Below, piece after piece: positions 6,703 to 15,021 of a stretch of 64,000 nt of DNA. A model generated the notes under the pieces. It was not told where the DNA came from and ran no database searches. It saw only the letters and a list, made by a program, of their open reading frames with translations. Position numbers and translations under genes: made by a program. The DNA lies in the NCBI RefSeq assembly GCF_014217335.1, contig NZ_CP060092.1, positions 1,505,501 to 1,569,500 on the forward strand, in the 5' to 3' direction. Origin of the DNA: Teredinibacter purpureus. Lineage in GTDB: Bacteria > Pseudomonadota > Gammaproteobacteria > Pseudomonadales > Cellvibrionaceae. Positions within the stretch are counted from its first letter, which is position 1, and each line of letters opens with the position of its first letter.

Positions 6703-7467
6703 GTGAATACCATTCCTGTAAAACAAGTGGAAGCCGAACCTGGCGAATATAGAACTTTGAGCGTTAACGTGTTTCGCCATAACCCTATGGATGAAAATAG
6801 CGTGCCTCACTTCGAGACCTTTGAGGTGGAAGAAGCAGATTCCATGACTCTCTTTATTTTGCTTAACGAGATTCGCGAAAATCAAGACCCTAGCGTGCAA
6901 TTCGATTTTGTTTGCCGCGCAGGTATCTGTGGCAGTTGTGCGATGCTTGTTAATGGTCGCCCCAAACTCGCGTGTCGAACGCTCACCAAAGATTTACCGG
7001 CAGTATTAAACCTTGCGCCTCTGCCCGGTTTTGAGTTGATCGGCGACCTTTCTGTGAATACCGGTAAGTGGATGCGTAATATGAGCGAACACTTAGAAAC
7101 GTGGATTCACAATAAAGAGGAAGAACGTGATTTTTGCGAGATAGAAGAAAAAATGGAGCCGGAAGTTGCTGACAAAATTTACGAGCTGGAACGTTGCGTA
7201 GAATGCGGCTGCTGCATTGCCGCCTGCGGTACAGCGCAAATGCGAACCGATTTTGTAGGTGCCGTGGGAATCAATCAGTTGGCGCGTTTTAGAATAGACC
7301 CCCGTGACGATCGTACGGATGCCGATTACTACGAAGTGCTCGGTACTGAAGACGGTGTATTCGGCTGTATGACCCTGCTCGGCTGCGAGGATATGTGTCC
7401 GAAGGAGCTGCCGTTGGCTCAGCAAATTGCGTATATGCGTAGAAAAATGGCGTTGTCCGGCGTCTAG
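6703..7467 (+). CDS. frdB: fumarate reductase/succinate dehydrogenase iron-sulfur subunit
   Basis: The electron-transfer subunit linking the flavoprotein to the membrane haems, 254 residues. The start is GTG, 8 bases after a GAGG; an ATG just upstream (6698) opens a three-codon frame only. C71, C76, C79 and C91 bind the [2Fe-2S] cluster. C165, C168, C171 and C175, with the later cysteines in G-C-M-T-L-L-G-C-E-D-M-C-P, serve the [4Fe-4S] and [3Fe-4S] clusters. All the N-terminal spacings match Wolinella FrdB with a constant offset. It is the last gene of the frdCAB operon and is followed by a strong hairpin. A degenerate second copy of its last 21 codons lies at 8951-9013. Confidence 0.95.
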   Translation: MNTIPVKQVEAEPGEYRTLSVNVFRHNPMDENSVPHFETFEVEEADSMTLFILLNEIRENQDPSVQFDFVCRAGICGSCAMLVNGRPKLACRTLTKDLPAVLNLAPLPGFELIGDLSVNTGKWMRNMSEHLETWIHNKEEERDFCEIEEKMEPEVADKIYELERCVECGCCIAACGTAQMRTDFVGAVGINQLARFRIDPRDDRTDADYYEVLGTEDGVFGCMTLLGCEDMCPKELPLAQQIAYMRRKMALSGV

Positions 7468-7496
7468 TCGTTCAAACCGTTTCTGACCTTAGCCTT

Positions 7497-7537
7497 CCAA
7501 GCCTTTAATAGACCTCAATGGACTATTAAAGGCTTGG
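7497..7537 (+). terminator. hairpin terminator after frdB
   Basis: A perfect 15-base inverted repeat (CCAAGCCTTTAATAG at 7497-7511, its complement at 7523-7537) with an 11-base loop lies 29 bases after the frdB stop. The tract after it (TGTCTTGAAATTCTG) is only moderately T-rich, so termination strength is uncertain, but position and stem fit the end of the frdCAB transcript. Confidence 0.7.
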
Positions 7538-7694
7538 TGTCTTGAAATTCTGTTATCCTCCTGAATCGACCCTAATCGCTGTTATAGTCCATTACTGTCT
7601 GTTCGAAAAGGCATTATAACGGATGGTATTCTCTTAAAAAACGCGCCTGAGCCAGAAGAGAAATCGTGAGCGAGTGAACGATTAATTCAAGCTT

Positions 7695-7772
7695 TTGACG
7701 TAGAGCCAGTAAACTGGTCTAGAATAGATTAATGGGGCTTTACTGCGGCTTTGCAATACAATACTGTATTGT
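7695..7772 (+). promoter_or_regulatory. candidate promoter with two operator-like palindromes
   Basis: TTGACG (7695-7700) and TAGAAT (7720-7725) form a possible sigma-70 promoter with a long 19-base spacer. Inside the spacer is CCAGT-aa-ACTGG (7706-7717). Just downstream, ACAATAC-t-GTATTGT (7758-7772) is a perfect 7+1+7 palindrome where a repressor could bind. The gene at 7857 starts 84 bases later. The binding protein is unknown and none of this is tested. Confidence 0.35.
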
Positions 7773-7856
7773 CAGGCTGTCTATATCCTCTGTGTCTAGC
7801 GCAGATTATTGGCCATTGTTCCTCACTATTAAGCGTCCCTCTATTTTTGTAAAGCT

Positions 7857-8699
7857 ATGAAAAAAGTAGTGTTTTCTTTTCTTTTCTCCGCTCTATTTAT
7901 ATTGGCGCCTATTGAGGTGTTGGCTGAAAAAGTTATAACGCACTGTATGCAGGGCGATAAAAGTTATACAGTCGATTTGCTGAAGCTAGCCCTTAATACA
8001 CAAAAGTACGTATATGAATTAGAGCGTAACGATTGGTTTTGTTCTGAAAAGCGAAAGTTAAAATCTGTATTTGAACGTGACATTAAAATTATTTGGGCTG
8101 GCGCTAGCGTTGAGTTAGAAGAAAAGCTAATACCGGTACGTATTCCCATTTTTAAAGGTCTCACAAGTTATCGCGTGCTCCTCATTAGGAGAAGCGAGCA
8201 GGTAAAATTTTCGAAAATTCAGACATTAAGTGATTTTAAATTGTTGAGCCTTGGTCAAGCTGAAGATTGGGTCGACACAAAAATATTTCGAGCGTCTGGT
8301 ATTCGAGTAGTAACATCTCACAGCTTCGAAGTATTGCCAAAAATGTTGTCTCATGGGCGCTTTGATGCTTTTCCTCGAGGAATACAGCAGGCATGGAATG
8401 ACGCGCAACAGTTTTCTAATCTCGGCTTGGAAGTTGAGCAAGAATTGGCTTTTCATTACCGGTTGCCCTCCTATTTCTATTTATCTCCCGATAGCGCCGA
8501 TCTCGCTAAAACATTAGAGAAGGGTTTGGAAGCGCTTATAGCCAGTGGTGAGTTCGATAGGTTTTTTTATTCTCACCCTCTTATTATTGAAGGTCTAAGA
8601 AATTTCAATATTAAACAGCGTAGAGTGTTTGAGTTGCCTAACCCCTTTCTACCTACAAAGGTTCCTACGGAACGCGAAGAATTATGGCTTAACTTTTAA
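7857..8699 (+). CDS. orphan periplasmic substrate-binding-like protein
   Basis: A 280-residue protein with a signal peptide (M-K-K-V-V-F-S-F then a hydrophobic stretch to E-V-L-A-E). The rest resembles family-3 periplasmic solute-binding proteins. It has the pattern G-Q-x3-W-x-D-T-x3-R-x2-G-I (about residues 136-153) followed by L-x2-M-L-x2-G-R-F-D (about 166-176), shared with the protein at 14062-15021. No permease or ATPase gene lies near either, so it is probably not part of an ordinary ABC importer. It may instead be a sensor or stray ligand binder, but the ligand is unknown. The gene sits alone behind an operator-like palindrome, in an interval that appears to have been duplicated. Confidence 0.7.
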   Translation: MKKVVFSFLFSALFILAPIEVLAEKVITHCMQGDKSYTVDLLKLALNTQKYVYELERNDWFCSEKRKLKSVFERDIKIIWAGASVELEEKLIPVRIPIFKGLTSYRVLLIRRSEQVKFSKIQTLSDFKLLSLGQAEDWVDTKIFRASGIRVVTSHSFEVLPKMLSHGRFDAFPRGIQQAWNDAQQFSNLGLEVEQELAFHYRLPSYFYLSPDSADLAKTLEKGLEALIASGEFDRFFYSHPLIIEGLRNFNIKQRRVFELPNPFLPTKVPTEREELWLNF

Positions 8700-8821
8700 T
8701 AACACGTTTAGTTCTGGAGCGTGTGCCGGGTAACCGAAATCCCTCGTACTACTTTTACCCGTGGTGTGGTTGACCAGCGTAGGGTGCTGATACTCTAAAA
8801 CTGATCGTATTCACACAATCT

Positions 8822-8938
8822 TAAGCGTTTGCCTTGTCTATTAACGTTTAACACTCCTTTTCGCCCAGCCGAGACGTGCCTATTTCTTGTTGTCGTCGGC
8901 GTCGATATTTTACGGGTTGATCGTTTGTTTGGCGCTAG
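8822..8938 (-). pseudogene. degenerate copy of the degS C-terminal end
   Basis: Read on the plus strand, this stretch lines up with the 3' part of the real degS gene at about 10808-10945. Matches include GCCGAGAC, GCCTATTTCTTGTTG and the surrounding positions, with small gaps. Translated on the minus strand it still shows N-D-Q-x-V and Q-Q-E-I-G-T-S-R-L-G, against N-N-Q-M-V and Q-Q-E-I-G-E-S-R-P-G in DegS (residues 351-360, end of the PDZ domain). Stops and frame changes follow directly, so it cannot be functional. It has the same orientation as degS. Confidence 0.7.
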
Positions 8939-8950
8939 TGTGGGCGTCTT

Positions 8951-9013
8951 AAGGGCCCGCCGTTGGCTCAGTAAATTGCGCGCATGCGTAGGCGTTTGGC
9001 TTTGGTAAAATAA
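8951..9013 (+). pseudogene. degenerate copy of the frdB 3' end
   Basis: Twenty-one codons read K-G-P-P-L-A-Q-stop-I-A-R-M-R-R-R-L-A-L-V-K-stop. The intact frdB ends K-E-L-P-L-A-Q-Q-I-A-Y-M-R-R-K-M-A-L. The shared DNA includes CCGTTGGCTCAG and AAATTGCG, and the internal stop is a CAA to TAA change. No other part of frdB is recognisable upstream: the match starts about a dozen bases after the degS fossil ends. It is a remnant of a duplicated or recombined second frdB tail. Confidence 0.75.
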
Positions 9014-9223
9014 GGGCGGTGCGGTGAACTTGGTTAGCCATAAATTGAATATGATGCGGCTTTATTATTTGCTCGCGTTCGGCAGGGAATTACAGTTTTA
9101 CCGGTAGCATATTGACGGTAGGAGAAAGAAAAGCCTTTGCAAAATATACCTGATTAATCGTATCGCTAATGACCCTATTCTGAATAGGAATGGAATTTGA
9201 ATAAGGTAGGACGTTTAGATGAC

Positions 9224-9246
9224 GCTCAGCCGCGGTGCGGCTGAGC
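9224..9246. terminator. GC-rich hairpin downstream of the minus-strand secreted protein gene
   Basis: GCTCAGCCGC and its exact complement GCGGCTGAGC flank a 3-base loop, 10 bases beyond the stop of the gene at 9257-10198. On the minus strand it is preceded, not followed, by a T run, so it may act more as a transcript-end stabiliser than a classic terminator. The rest of 9014-9223 shows nothing recognisable. Confidence 0.5.
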
Positions 9247-9256
9247 AAAAGGGTAC

Positions 9257-10198
9257 TTACAATATTTTTTCGAGTTTAATCGCGGTTGGGCATCCTCCAG
9301 TATGGCGATAGCCTGCATACGGAGTGATTGTACAGTTAGAATTCATATTCGAACCTGTCCATGTCCAACTGGCAACAGGGCTTGGACCGCACAGAAAGCG
9401 TCTTTCTTTAGAGCCAGCGCTAACCCAAACACAGCCAGGCTCGATATAAGAGCCATATGGGCCAGTACTATACAAAAGCTGATCTGGTGTACTGGTATCG
9501 ACTACCGGAGGAGTGCTTCCACCAGAGGAGGGTGCGCTGCCTAAGTCTAAGGTAAGGCTTTTTGTATCGCTGTAGCCGTCATTGTCGTTCACGGTTACCG
9601 TTCTAGTAAAATTTCCGTATGGTTGATTCACTGTTGAGTAAACTGCTATCCGGCCATTATCTTTAGTTGTCTGAGGGCTTCCACTCCATTGATAGTTAAC
9701 GATATCTCCGTCTATATCGTAAGAGCCAACGGCTGAAAATTCGATAAACCAATGTGAATTGCTAGTTATTTGGTAAGGGGCTTTATAGTTAACAATGTTG
9801 GCCGTTGGAGTGTAATCGCACACTTCTATCGTTTGATGGCTAGTTCTCATATTTAGAGGAACGTCGCACGCGACAGTGATAGCGAGCCCTTGGTTGGAAA
9901 AGCCAATTAGCTCGGAAATAGTATAGTGAGAGCTACTGCTATTAAATACCGAGATGTGTTGAGAAATATAATGTTGTGGTGGTGCCGTTCCAATGCCTTG
10001 CCCGTTGCTGTAGCCGCAAATATTGTCATAAGAACATGTGGCAAGCTCTATGCCCCAGCATGAGGCCACTCCTGTGTATTCATAATATGTCGTTGTTTGG
10101 TCTACATTTCGACAATTTACTTCATCTCCACCAGCAAAAACACTGACGCTTAGCATCGATAAAATAAATACATAAACGTAAATTGATATTTTTTTCAT
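9257..10198 (-). CDS. secreted protein with PKD-like domain and four-cysteine C-terminal module
   Basis: A 313-residue protein of unknown function. A signal peptide (M-K-K-I-S-I-Y-V-Y-V to V-F-A-G-G) marks it for export. Residues about 30-130 form a cysteine-containing region with no recognised family. About 130-215 looks like a PKD/cadherin-like Ig fold (Y-D-I-D-G-D-I-V-N-Y-Q-W, later V-N-D-N-D-G-Y-S-D-T-K). A Ser/Gly/Pro linker leads to the last 70 residues, which hold four cysteines in the pattern C-x13-C-x18-C-T-I-T-x10-C. The same module, with slightly longer loops, forms most of the 106-residue secreted protein at 31173-31493. The gene stands alone. The start ATG follows an A-C-G-G-G-A sequence that can serve as ribosome-binding site. 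Confidence 0.65.
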   Translation of the reverse strand: MKKISIYVYVFILSMLSVSVFAGGDEVNCRNVDQTTTYYEYTGVASCWGIELATCSYDNICGYSNGQGIGTAPPQHYISQHISVFNSSSSHYTISELIGFSNQGLAITVACDVPLNMRTSHQTIEVCDYTPTANIVNYKAPYQITSNSHWFIEFSAVGSYDIDGDIVNYQWSGSPQTTKDNGRIAVYSTVNQPYGNFTRTVTVNDNDGYSDTKSLTLDLGSAPSSGGSTPPVVDTSTPDQLLYSTGPYGSYIEPGCVWVSAGSKERRFLCGPSPVASWTWTGSNMNSNCTITPYAGYRHTGGCPTAIKLEKIL

Positions 10199-10773
10199 TG
10201 AAAAATCCCGTTATATTTTAAGTGATTACCCCAATAGTTATATTGGCTCTAATTGTCATACCAATATGTTTTCAGTGTATTACAGCGTGTTGTTAATCCC
10301 TAAATGCATTGGTGCTTTTCAGTTGTAAGATATGTTTTTTTGTGAACTGTTAACGTGTTATGTAGGGTTGTTGCTTGCAGGTAAAAAATAGGCGTAGTTA
10401 TTAAAGCGGTACTTTGAGGTTCGATATTTGGGTTGTTGCTTTTTAGGGCGTACTTTCGTTGCCGCTTATTTTTCGCAATGATTTTGATAAGAGGCAACCA
10501 AACATAGTCGTTTTTGTTCTGAAATCGACGGTGTGGCGTATCTCGCCTTGCAATAAAAAATTATGGAAAAAATTGTCGCGAATAATCTGCTTTCGGTTTA
10601 CGCGTGATGTTTGCGTGCGAGTTATCTCCGCTGAAACGGAGAAAGGACGATGGGATAAGGTGGGTCGATGAGAGGGGGAGGGAAGGGGCGTTAGCGTTTA
10701 GCTGCAGTGAGTGGTAGAAAGGTGAATATTTTCATTCCAAGGGGGTGTTTCGATAAATATTGATTGGTTCGGT
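10199..10773. other. long intergenic region without a recognisable gene
   Basis: These 575 bases separate the secreted-protein gene from degS, both on the minus strand. The left part should contain the promoter of the secreted-protein gene. A short CTCCG/CGGAG inverted repeat (about 10627-10643) is the only structure noticed. Open frames here show no protein-like composition or ribosome-binding site. It may be decayed sequence from the duplicated interval. Confidence 0.4.
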
Positions 10774-11937
10774 TCAGCTCGCAATAGGCTCTGACTCCAG
10801 TACGGCCTCAAACGTTTGCCGTTTTCCTTGTCGAATAACGTCTATGACTACTTCGTCACCCGGCCGAGACTCGCCTATTTCTTGTTGCCCCCAGCGTCCA
10901 TCTCCTACCATTTGATTATTTATTCGCGTTATGACGTCGCCGGGCCGCAAGCCTGCTTTGTCGGCAGGGCCTCCAGTGTAAACGTGTGTCACAAGAACAC
11001 CGTTGGTGGAGGTAAGGTTGAATGATTGGGCTAGCTGAGGAGACAGTGATTGTGCTTCGACCCCGAGCCAGCCTCGAACAATTCGACCAAATTCAACGAT
11101 ATCGTTGAGCGTTTGAATGGCTGTGTCGGCAGGAATAGCAAAACCAATGCCGCCCACAGAGCCGCTTTGGTCTAAGTTTGCGGTGTTAATACCTAATAAG
11201 TTGCCATGCGCATCGATGAGGGCTCCACCCGAGTTGCCGGGGTTAATAGCCGCATCGGTTTGAATAAAGTTTTCGAAGGCCGCAATGTTAAACCCACGCC
11301 TGCGTGTAGCGCTAACAATGCCTTGAGTGACGGTTTGACCCATGCCGAAGGCATTACCTATGGCTAATACGACATCCCCAACCATGGTGGTGTCTGGTGA
11401 TCCTATGGGGATAGGGTTTAGGTTGTCTAAGTCAATTTTTAGGACGGCTAGATCGCTCTTACTATTAACGCCTTTTAGTTCTGCGTGCGCTTCGCGACCA
11501 TCCGCCAGTGCGACAACAATTTCGTCGACGCCATTGATAACATGGTTGTTGGTTAAGATATAACCTTCTTTGCTGACGATAACACCTGAGCCGCGCGCGG
11601 ATTGCATGCGCTGCTGGCGAGGGATGTCGGAATTATTGAAGTAATGGCGAAATAATGGGTCGTCAAATAGAGGGTGCCGACGAATATTGACTTGGGTGCG
11701 GGTATATATATTGACGACTGCTGGCGCAGCGCGAGCAACGGCGCGCGCATAGGAGGTAGTGCCCTGCCAGCCATCGTTTTCGGTGGGCGACAAAAAAGCC
11801 ACTGGCCGCCCAATGGCCCCAGTTTGAATGACGGAGTGTTTAAACTCGGGAAAGAGTGTAAGTGCTATCAGAGCGCCGAGTAGCCCGATAACAACGGGCC
11901 ATCGAACATAAACGAACGCTCTGTAAAGGGTATTCAT
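10774..11937 (-). CDS. degS: DegS/AlgW-type periplasmic serine endoprotease
   Basis: A membrane-anchored protease of 387 residues. In E. coli and Pseudomonas it starts the envelope-stress response by cutting the anti-sigma factor RseA/MucA when unfolded porins bind its PDZ domain. An N-terminal transmembrane helix (about 12-30) anchors it in the inner membrane. The trypsin-like domain has the triad H132 (T-N-N-H-V), D162 (K-S-D-L-A-V-L-K) and S236 (G-N-S-G-G-A-L). One PDZ domain follows (about 285-380), with G-W-L-G-V at its start, which separates it from the two-PDZ DegP/MucD type. The start ATG is at 11937. A degenerate copy of its C-terminal end lies at 8822-8938. SspB, its helper in RseA turnover in E. 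coli, is also in this window. Confidence 0.9.
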   Translation of the reverse strand: MNTLYRAFVYVRWPVVIGLLGALIALTLFPEFKHSVIQTGAIGRPVAFLSPTENDGWQGTTSYARAVARAAPAVVNIYTRTQVNIRRHPLFDDPLFRHYFNNSDIPRQQRMQSARGSGVIVSKEGYILTNNHVINGVDEIVVALADGREAHAELKGVNSKSDLAVLKIDLDNLNPIPIGSPDTTMVGDVVLAIGNAFGMGQTVTQGIVSATRRRGFNIAAFENFIQTDAAINPGNSGGALIDAHGNLLGINTANLDQSGSVGGIGFAIPADTAIQTLNDIVEFGRIVRGWLGVEAQSLSPQLAQSFNLTSTNGVLVTHVYTGGPADKAGLRPGDVITRINNQMVGDGRWGQQEIGESRPGDEVVIDVIRQGKRQTFEAVLESEPIAS

Positions 11938-14061: not shown

Positions 14062-15021
14062 ATGTTTAGTTTGTTGAAGCTATACCGGTTTTGGTCTCTT
14101 TTTAGGAGAGGTGTGTTCGCCTTTGTGGGGCTAACGCTATTGCTGGCCCCAGCAGCGAATGTTTTGGGTAAAGACGATGCTCCTGAGCCGCTAACAGTTA
14201 TTCACAGCATTAGTGGGTGGAGCCCCACTATGAAAGCGTTCCAAATGGATTTGATGAGGACGTTGTTACGCTTATCGTCTGAGGAGGAGGGCGATTATAA
14301 CGCTGTTTTCGATGATAGAAATATGACAACAAGCCGCTCCATGCTAGCGACACGCCGAGGTGAAATTCACACGGGGTTGACCACCGGTTGGGGGGCGCTA
14401 AGAAACAGCAAGGAGCATGTGACGCTTTATCGTTATCCCTATTTAAAGTCATTGTTAGGGCTGCGGCGTTTTATCATTCGAGCAGAAGACCGAGAACGCT
14501 TTGAGTCTATTCGATCAGTTAAGGGGTTAAAGGGGTTTCGTGCGGGGCAGGGTGCCGGCTGGCCGGATACGCGAGTTTACCGTGAGGCCGGTATTGAGGT
14601 TGTTGAGGCCGAAAACTACCCCAGCTTGTTCCCTATGCTGGCCAAAGGCCGCTTTGACTTTTTACCGTTGAGCGTGCTGGAGGTAGAGGGTGCGCTAGCA
14701 GAGTTTGAAAAGGATTACCCGAGCTTAATCATTGCAGAAAATATGTATGTCTTTTACCCCATACCTTTGTATATAAGTGTTAGCAATACTAAGCCTAAAG
14801 TGTCTGAGCGATTGAAGGCAGGGCTGGATGTTTTGTTTGATCCAGACAGTCCTTTTGAACTTGACAATCTCATGTTGCGTCATTTCCCATTAGAGGGAGA
14901 GATTGAGATTGATGGTCGAGCCACGTTAATTACAATGAATAACCCTTATGCTGAGGCCGAAATTAACCTCACTATGTTGCGTTATTTTAGTGAACATTAT
15001 CGTGTTACTCTCTCCCGCTAG
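14062..15021 (+). CDS. second orphan periplasmic substrate-binding-like protein
   Basis: A 319-residue exported protein. The N-terminus has basic residues, a hydrophobic core (about 18-33) and a likely cleavage site near N-V-L-G-K. The body shares with the protein at 7857-8699 the motif G-Q-G-A-G-W-P-D-T-R-V-Y-R-E-A-G-I, then L-F-P-M-L-A-K-G-R-F-D-F-L-P. This marks both as paralogues of a solute-binding-like family. GGAGG shortly before the ATG supports the start. No transporter genes are near. The gene interrupts the usual zapE-rplM neighbourhood of relatives, so it is probably an insertion. The ligand is unknown. Confidence 0.7.
   Translation: MFSLLKLYRFWSLFRRGVFAFVGLTLLLAPAANVLGKDDAPEPLTVIHSISGWSPTMKAFQMDLMRTLLRLSSEEEGDYNAVFDDRNMTTSRSMLATRRGEIHTGLTTGWGALRNSKEHVTLYRYPYLKSLLGLRRFIIRAEDRERFESIRSVKGLKGFRAGQGAGWPDTRVYREAGIEVVEAENYPSLFPMLAKGRFDFLPLSVLEVEGALAEFEKDYPSLIIAENMYVFYPIPLYISVSNTKPKVSERLKAGLDVLFDPDSPFELDNLMLRHFPLEGEIEIDGRATLITMNNPYAEAEINLTMLRYFSEHYRVTLSR

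Follow-up and report, generated by a model that had tools for sequence, protein, structure and literature searches.

Between frdB and degS of Teredinibacter purpureus, a short piece resembling the end of degS lies next to a short piece resembling the end of frdB, and the locus raises the question of what event left these two fossils side by side. The original prediction had read them as the scar of a tandem duplication, or of a Campbell-type insertion of a related segment, reaching from the frdB tail to the degS tail. We examined the locus within the window, that is, the whole stretch of 64,000 nt that was analysed, in whose coordinates all positions of this genome are given. The interval contains the following features:

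6703..7467, plus strand: frdB, intact; fumarate reductase / succinate dehydrogenase iron-sulfur subunit; parent of the frdB fossil
7497..7537, plus strand: terminator-like inverted repeat, 30 nt after frdB
7857..8699, plus strand: cargo 1, substrate-binding-protein-like (SBP) gene, so called from the names of homologs
8819..8935, minus strand: degS fossil, firm part 8826-8929; copy of about 10808-10930
8930..8948, no strand: junction zone between the fossils, fitting neither parent above chance
8946..9004, plus strand: frdB fossil, firm part 8951-8991; copy of 7397-7455
9257..10198, minus strand: cargo 2, PKD-like protein, with a weak PKD match and a signal peptide seen by eye
10774..11937, minus strand: degS, intact; trypsin-like peptidase with PDZ domain; parent of the degS fossil

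The two parents are convergent, conserved genes with clear Pfam matches (frdB: Fer2_3, E 3.7e-28, and Fer4_8, E 5.8e-9; degS: Trypsin_2, E 6.7e-33, and PDZ_2, E 5.3e-15), and one close homolog of each was found in all seven congeners. The FrdB protein is 88-91% identical in six of these and 81% in the seventh, and the DegS protein is 75-87% identical across the seven. The fossils sit between the two cargo genes, which are the only ORFs of at least 100 aa lying wholly between frdB and degS. Neither cargo gene has a mobile-element domain in Pfam, and no RNA family was detected in 7000-11300 at E 0.1. The SBP-like gene is AT-rich (GC 0.395 vs 0.473 for the window) and lacks a Pfam match; some of its homologs are named transporter substrate-binding domain proteins, and one carries PF00497. 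A homolog with 60% amino-acid identity directly follows frdB in the congener G005. It was also noted that this gene belongs to a large family, with 20 matches in this genome and 31 in G006, whose members occur between conserved genes at more than one place (for example, 14062-15021 of the window). The PKD protein is encoded by a mildly AT-rich gene (GC 0.435), and its PKD_4 match (E 7.5e-5) falls below Pfam's cut-off. No match to it was found in six of the seven congeners, and G007 gave a weak PKD-only match. The protein search returned, besides the protein itself, one distant relative (P0002), which is 69% identical over the last 95 residues with the remainder unaligned; this suggests that the C-terminal domain may be swappable. 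In identical form the PKD protein is listed for three contigs, the longest with 4,662,140 bases compared with 4,643,613 for the contig of this genome, so a further assembly seems to exist.

To establish whether the fossils exist, the 64-kb window was compared with itself by BLAST (both strands; E ≤ 1e-3; low-complexity filter on), and they were the only off-diagonal matches. Positions 8826-8929 matched the 3' end of degS (10820-10924) with 74% identity, and 8951-8991 formed a core matching the 3' end of frdB (7402-7442) with 83% identity; the ungapped frdB copy over 8946-9004 is 75% identical. In the local alignment that had been proposed as a check on this region, positions 8701-9100 scored 47 against the frdB tail and 73 against the degS tail. 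The corresponding maxima were 28 and 34 among 2000 Markov-resampled sequences, none of which reached either score, and 28 and 32 among 614 other 400-nt pieces of the window (both strands). The fossils are short and 26-29% diverged, as chance similarity might also be, but the resampling refutes this explanation and leaves it practically no credence. Both predicted fossils are thus real. Across the 4.89-Mb genome, each tail has one significant second copy, namely its fossil, and these two copies fall within 180 nt of each other; two further matches to the frdB tail were insignificant (E 0.22 and 0.42). When the last 150 nt of 51 ORFs were compared with the 33 intergenic pieces of the window, a single 14-nt match (E 0.008) appeared besides the fossils.

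The order and strands were as predicted: the degS fossil is followed by the frdB fossil, 16-21 nt away, both between the two parents and each in its parent's orientation. Their location was likewise predicted correctly, but with slightly generous limits, as anchored extension past the BLAST cores did not exceed chance on any of the four sides (p 0.18 to 1). This test used a left anchor at 10819/8824, and a by-eye shift over the GTTTGCC/GTTTTCC repeat would add about ten bases. Depending on the alignment, the frdB copy stops 12-25 nt and the degS copy 34-46 nt before the end of its parent. Read on in frame by eye, the frdB fossil encounters a TAA at about the place where frdB ends in G001 and G006, a weak observation that was not used. 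The closest inverted repeat after this fossil (9224-9246) looks unrelated to the terminator-like repeat of frdB.

We then assessed the decay of the fossils and their age. The degS fossil differs from its parent at 34 of 117 aligned sites (0.29), with gaps of 1 and 5 nt, and the frdB fossil at 16 of 57 (0.28), with an in-frame TAA inside it. The substitutions are spread evenly over the three codon positions (13/10/11 in the degS fossil and 5/5/6 in the frdB fossil), whereas at the same sites the living genes differ from those of G001 mostly at third positions (4/4/20 and 3/1/6). This even spread, together with the equal divergence, indicates that the fossils are unconstrained and of one age. 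With the frame gaps of the degS copy and the stop codon of the frdB copy, they have the marks of neutral pseudogene fragments and, judged from their sequence, both are dead copies that drift neutrally.

The fossils were also compared with the genes of the congeners. The degS fossil is identical to its own parent at 83/117 sites and to the best congener at 68/117; the corresponding values for the frdB fossil (41/57 and 38/57) are less telling. At sites where this genome's gene differs from all seven congeners, the fossils carry the private state in 9 of 13 cases for degS and 1 of 2 for frdB (10/15 together), compared with 4/40 of the states private to one of the seven congeners. These counts and the fossil placement leave out G014 and G033, which belong to other genera, and G015 was left out of the trees. 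On a fixed backbone tree of eight genomes, the best joint placement of both fossils was on this genome's branch (RELL 0.84); the AU test of the joint placement rejects one of the 12 other branches only, and the frdB fossil alone hardly discriminates. Because the fossils share 10 of the 15 private states with this genome's own genes, they probably originated in this lineage, and from these sequence comparisons both were probably made by one event. The fossil-parent distance (JC 0.36) is clearly smaller than the distance to G001 at fourfold sites (JC 0.96 for frdB and 1.65 for degS), so the event is most likely younger than the split from G001 and probably lies at about a fifth to two fifths of its neutral depth. 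In trees of the seven congeners and two other genera, G001 is the neighbour of this genome for degS nucleotides (0.90) and for concatenated frdB and degS (0.95 and 0.98); the two are not paired in the frdB trees, and their pairing is unsupported in the degS protein tree. A core-protein tree places them together with support of 62.

If a whole interval had been duplicated, its sequence might still be present twice. However, 7468-8821 and 9014-10773 are no more similar than shuffled sequence (21/200 shuffles as good), and the flanks of the fossils show no similarity above shuffles to the flanks of the parents. The best single comparisons, 9014-9256 with the SBP region (19/500 shuffles as good) and 8700-8818 with 9014-10807 (31/500), were discounted given that seven comparisons were made. 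No second copies of the cargo and no remnants of the congeners' large operon were significant by tblastn, where the best E was 0.11-0.13 once the SBP homolog and the two known fossils were set aside. The claim that the entire frdB-degS interval was once duplicated was therefore not borne out: outside the fossils its halves share nothing above shuffles, even in traces, and the detectable homology ends before both gene ends.

We sought to compare the same gap across the genus. The row around it, which we take to be frdC-frdA-frdB and degS-zapG-zapE-rplM-rpsI-petA-petBC-sspA-sspB, is conserved in all eight genomes, the exception being that this genome, G002 and G005 carry SBP-like genes between zapE and rplM. 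Within this row the frdB-degS gap is the most variable, ranging from about 125 nt to 21 kb with unlike cargo. It measures 125 nt in G003 and G004, about 150 nt in G002, 1.3 kb in G001 (with one 312-aa ORF on the degS strand), 16.5 kb in G005 and 21 kb in G006. In G007 it is at least 14.5 kb if both gene-bearing contig ends face each other, the interval being split over two contig ends, with part reading N and thus partly unseen. In the gaps of G005, G006 and G007, genes run on from degS on the degS strand, beginning 9 nt after degS in G005:

G005: L047, 1459-16947
G006: L045/L046
G007: L048/L049

Their products are HlyD-type proteins, a PAS-GGDEF protein, a protein combining M50 and HlyD parts, and a giant protein with a DUF4347 match at its start. 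The domain assignments come from G005, the only genome tested for them, and the M50 match there does not reach Pfam's cut-off. In G006 and G007 the M50-type protein was confirmed, and the other genes were matched by size and sequence start. By sequence, the set has the look of a system for adhesin export linked to a DegS-type protease. The M50-type protein is present a second time in G006, at another place, and no match to it was found in this genome or G001. No fossils were seen in the seven congeners, six of which contain the whole interval and the last of which is G007 with its incomplete gap. Searched against the relatives, the frdB fossil matched intact frdB tails in G001, G006, G007 and G014, and the other fossil matches were short (E 0.03-0.05). 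The relatives that had been expected to support a duplication were therefore found in part: six of the seven congeners have a single interval without fossils, and none of the seven was found to have a single interval with both cargo genes, or the same fossils.

Taken with modest confidence, the explanation that we prefer is a tandem duplication from the frdB tail to the degS tail in this lineage after the split from G001, with later deletions. The duplication would have created a novel join, placing the degS tail beside the frdB tail, and the truncated tail copies, being functionless, would then have drifted. Redundant parts of the repeated interval would have been deleted from opposite units, leaving the SBP-like gene to the left of the join and the PKD protein to the right. 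We infer that the copying took in the stretch between the tails and that each cargo gene later lost one of its two copies: a unit of frdB tail, SBP, PKD and degS tail, losing PKD on the left and SBP on the right, would yield today's map with no cargo gained afterwards. In a variant of the same model, the cargo would have entered a short interval later. What stands of the predicted duplication is the pair of equally diverged fossils, probably from one event in this lineage, with both ends copied in direct orientation and in crossed order (right end, then left) between the parents; a repeat of the interval itself was not seen. As this repeat was not found, the assignment to tandem duplication is an indirect one, and later deletion could explain the absence. 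The model needs no fewer than two subsequent deletions or insertions, because only the tails are seen doubled and no remnant of a second cargo copy was found. The order, which had been offered as an argument against random rearrangement, is as described, but it is a weaker argument than was stated, being one of eight possible arrangements of two fragments (two orders, with two orientations each).

Such later deletions would not be required if the scar arose by template switching or templated break repair, in which roughly 120 nt from the end of degS and roughly 60 nt from that of frdB were copied into the gap between the cargo genes, with no duplication of an interval. This would fit the doubling of the tails only, the detectable homology that stops before the gene ends, and the lack of any other repeat in the interval. 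It would, however, demand two successive jumps to both flanks followed by a return, the observed order and orientation would be one of eight arrangements, and the junctions are too decayed to show microhomology; we regard this route as unlikely, if worth keeping in view. A still more doubtful proposal takes up the Campbell idea of the original prediction, narrowed to near kin: a frdB-SBP-degS allele and a frdB-PKD-degS allele, from two chromosomes of the species or of very near kin, would have been fused by one illegitimate join. The gap would then be an exchange site of the genus, where cargo sets are swapped by recombination in the flanking core genes, and the scar would be two alleles joined head to tail. 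The differing cargo of the congeners is consistent with this, as are the two units having only gene tails in common, the AT-richness of the SBP gene (the PKD gene being only mildly so) with its position beside frdB in G005 as well, and the pairing of this genome with G001 in the degS but not the frdB nucleotide tree. Against it, both fossils are closest to the genes of this genome itself, affinity did not shift abruptly along frdB or degS in 150-nt windows, and the two proposed alleles were not found, nor any relative with PKD alone in the interval.

Insertion of a related foreign segment by a Campbell-type crossover, the other half of the original prediction, is disfavoured, since the fossils are nearest this genome's own genes in both identity and private states at degS. 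Among the seven congeners and the two other genera in the trees, no fossil or flank was nearer a donor lineage. The 150-nt windows showed no mark of imported DNA along frdB or degS, and no vector or mobile-element genes were found between the repeats, where the two cargo genes are the only ORFs of at least 100 aa and neither has such a domain in Pfam. Bacterial intergenic DNA can hold gene fragments, so two unrelated rearrangements or insertions might also be considered. Nevertheless, the window has no other such fragment at the thresholds used, save the 14-nt match, and the two fossils are close neighbours, equally diverged and both from flanking genes, which makes independent origins very improbable.

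Bacterial duplications and amplifications can form a novel join at non-homologous or microhomologous ends and be remodelled later by deletion. Papers on the subject include PMC3411829 and PMC11111574. Like such duplications, this locus combines direct order and a crossed join with copies cut short at that join and parents intact outside it; unlike them, only the join region survives and the repeated interval is not visible. Similar to prokaryotic pseudogene fragments in intergenic DNA, a topic of PMC522871, the fossils are disabled and neutrally drifting, with gaps and a stop; they differ from these in that both stem from the flanking genes and come together at a single join, a clue to the event. 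No report of a frdB-degS scar appeared among the titles and abstract openings searched.

A variable insertion site between conserved genes is a hotspot of cargo turnover. The gap resembles one in its range of lengths and unlike cargo over eight genomes within a conserved row, and departs from the concept in that a scan of 10 stretches found no tRNA gene, and seven interval proteins or pieces (two of the window and five of G005) showed no mobile-element domain. The scar is real, but it is an ordinary kind of genome scar, and neither it nor the variable gap alters general understanding. It offers a clean, polarised example in which the join of two gene ends preserves the trace of a lost duplication or allele fusion, with an age that can be set against a species split, and it marks the frdB-degS gap as a variable spot of a conserved gene row in the genus.
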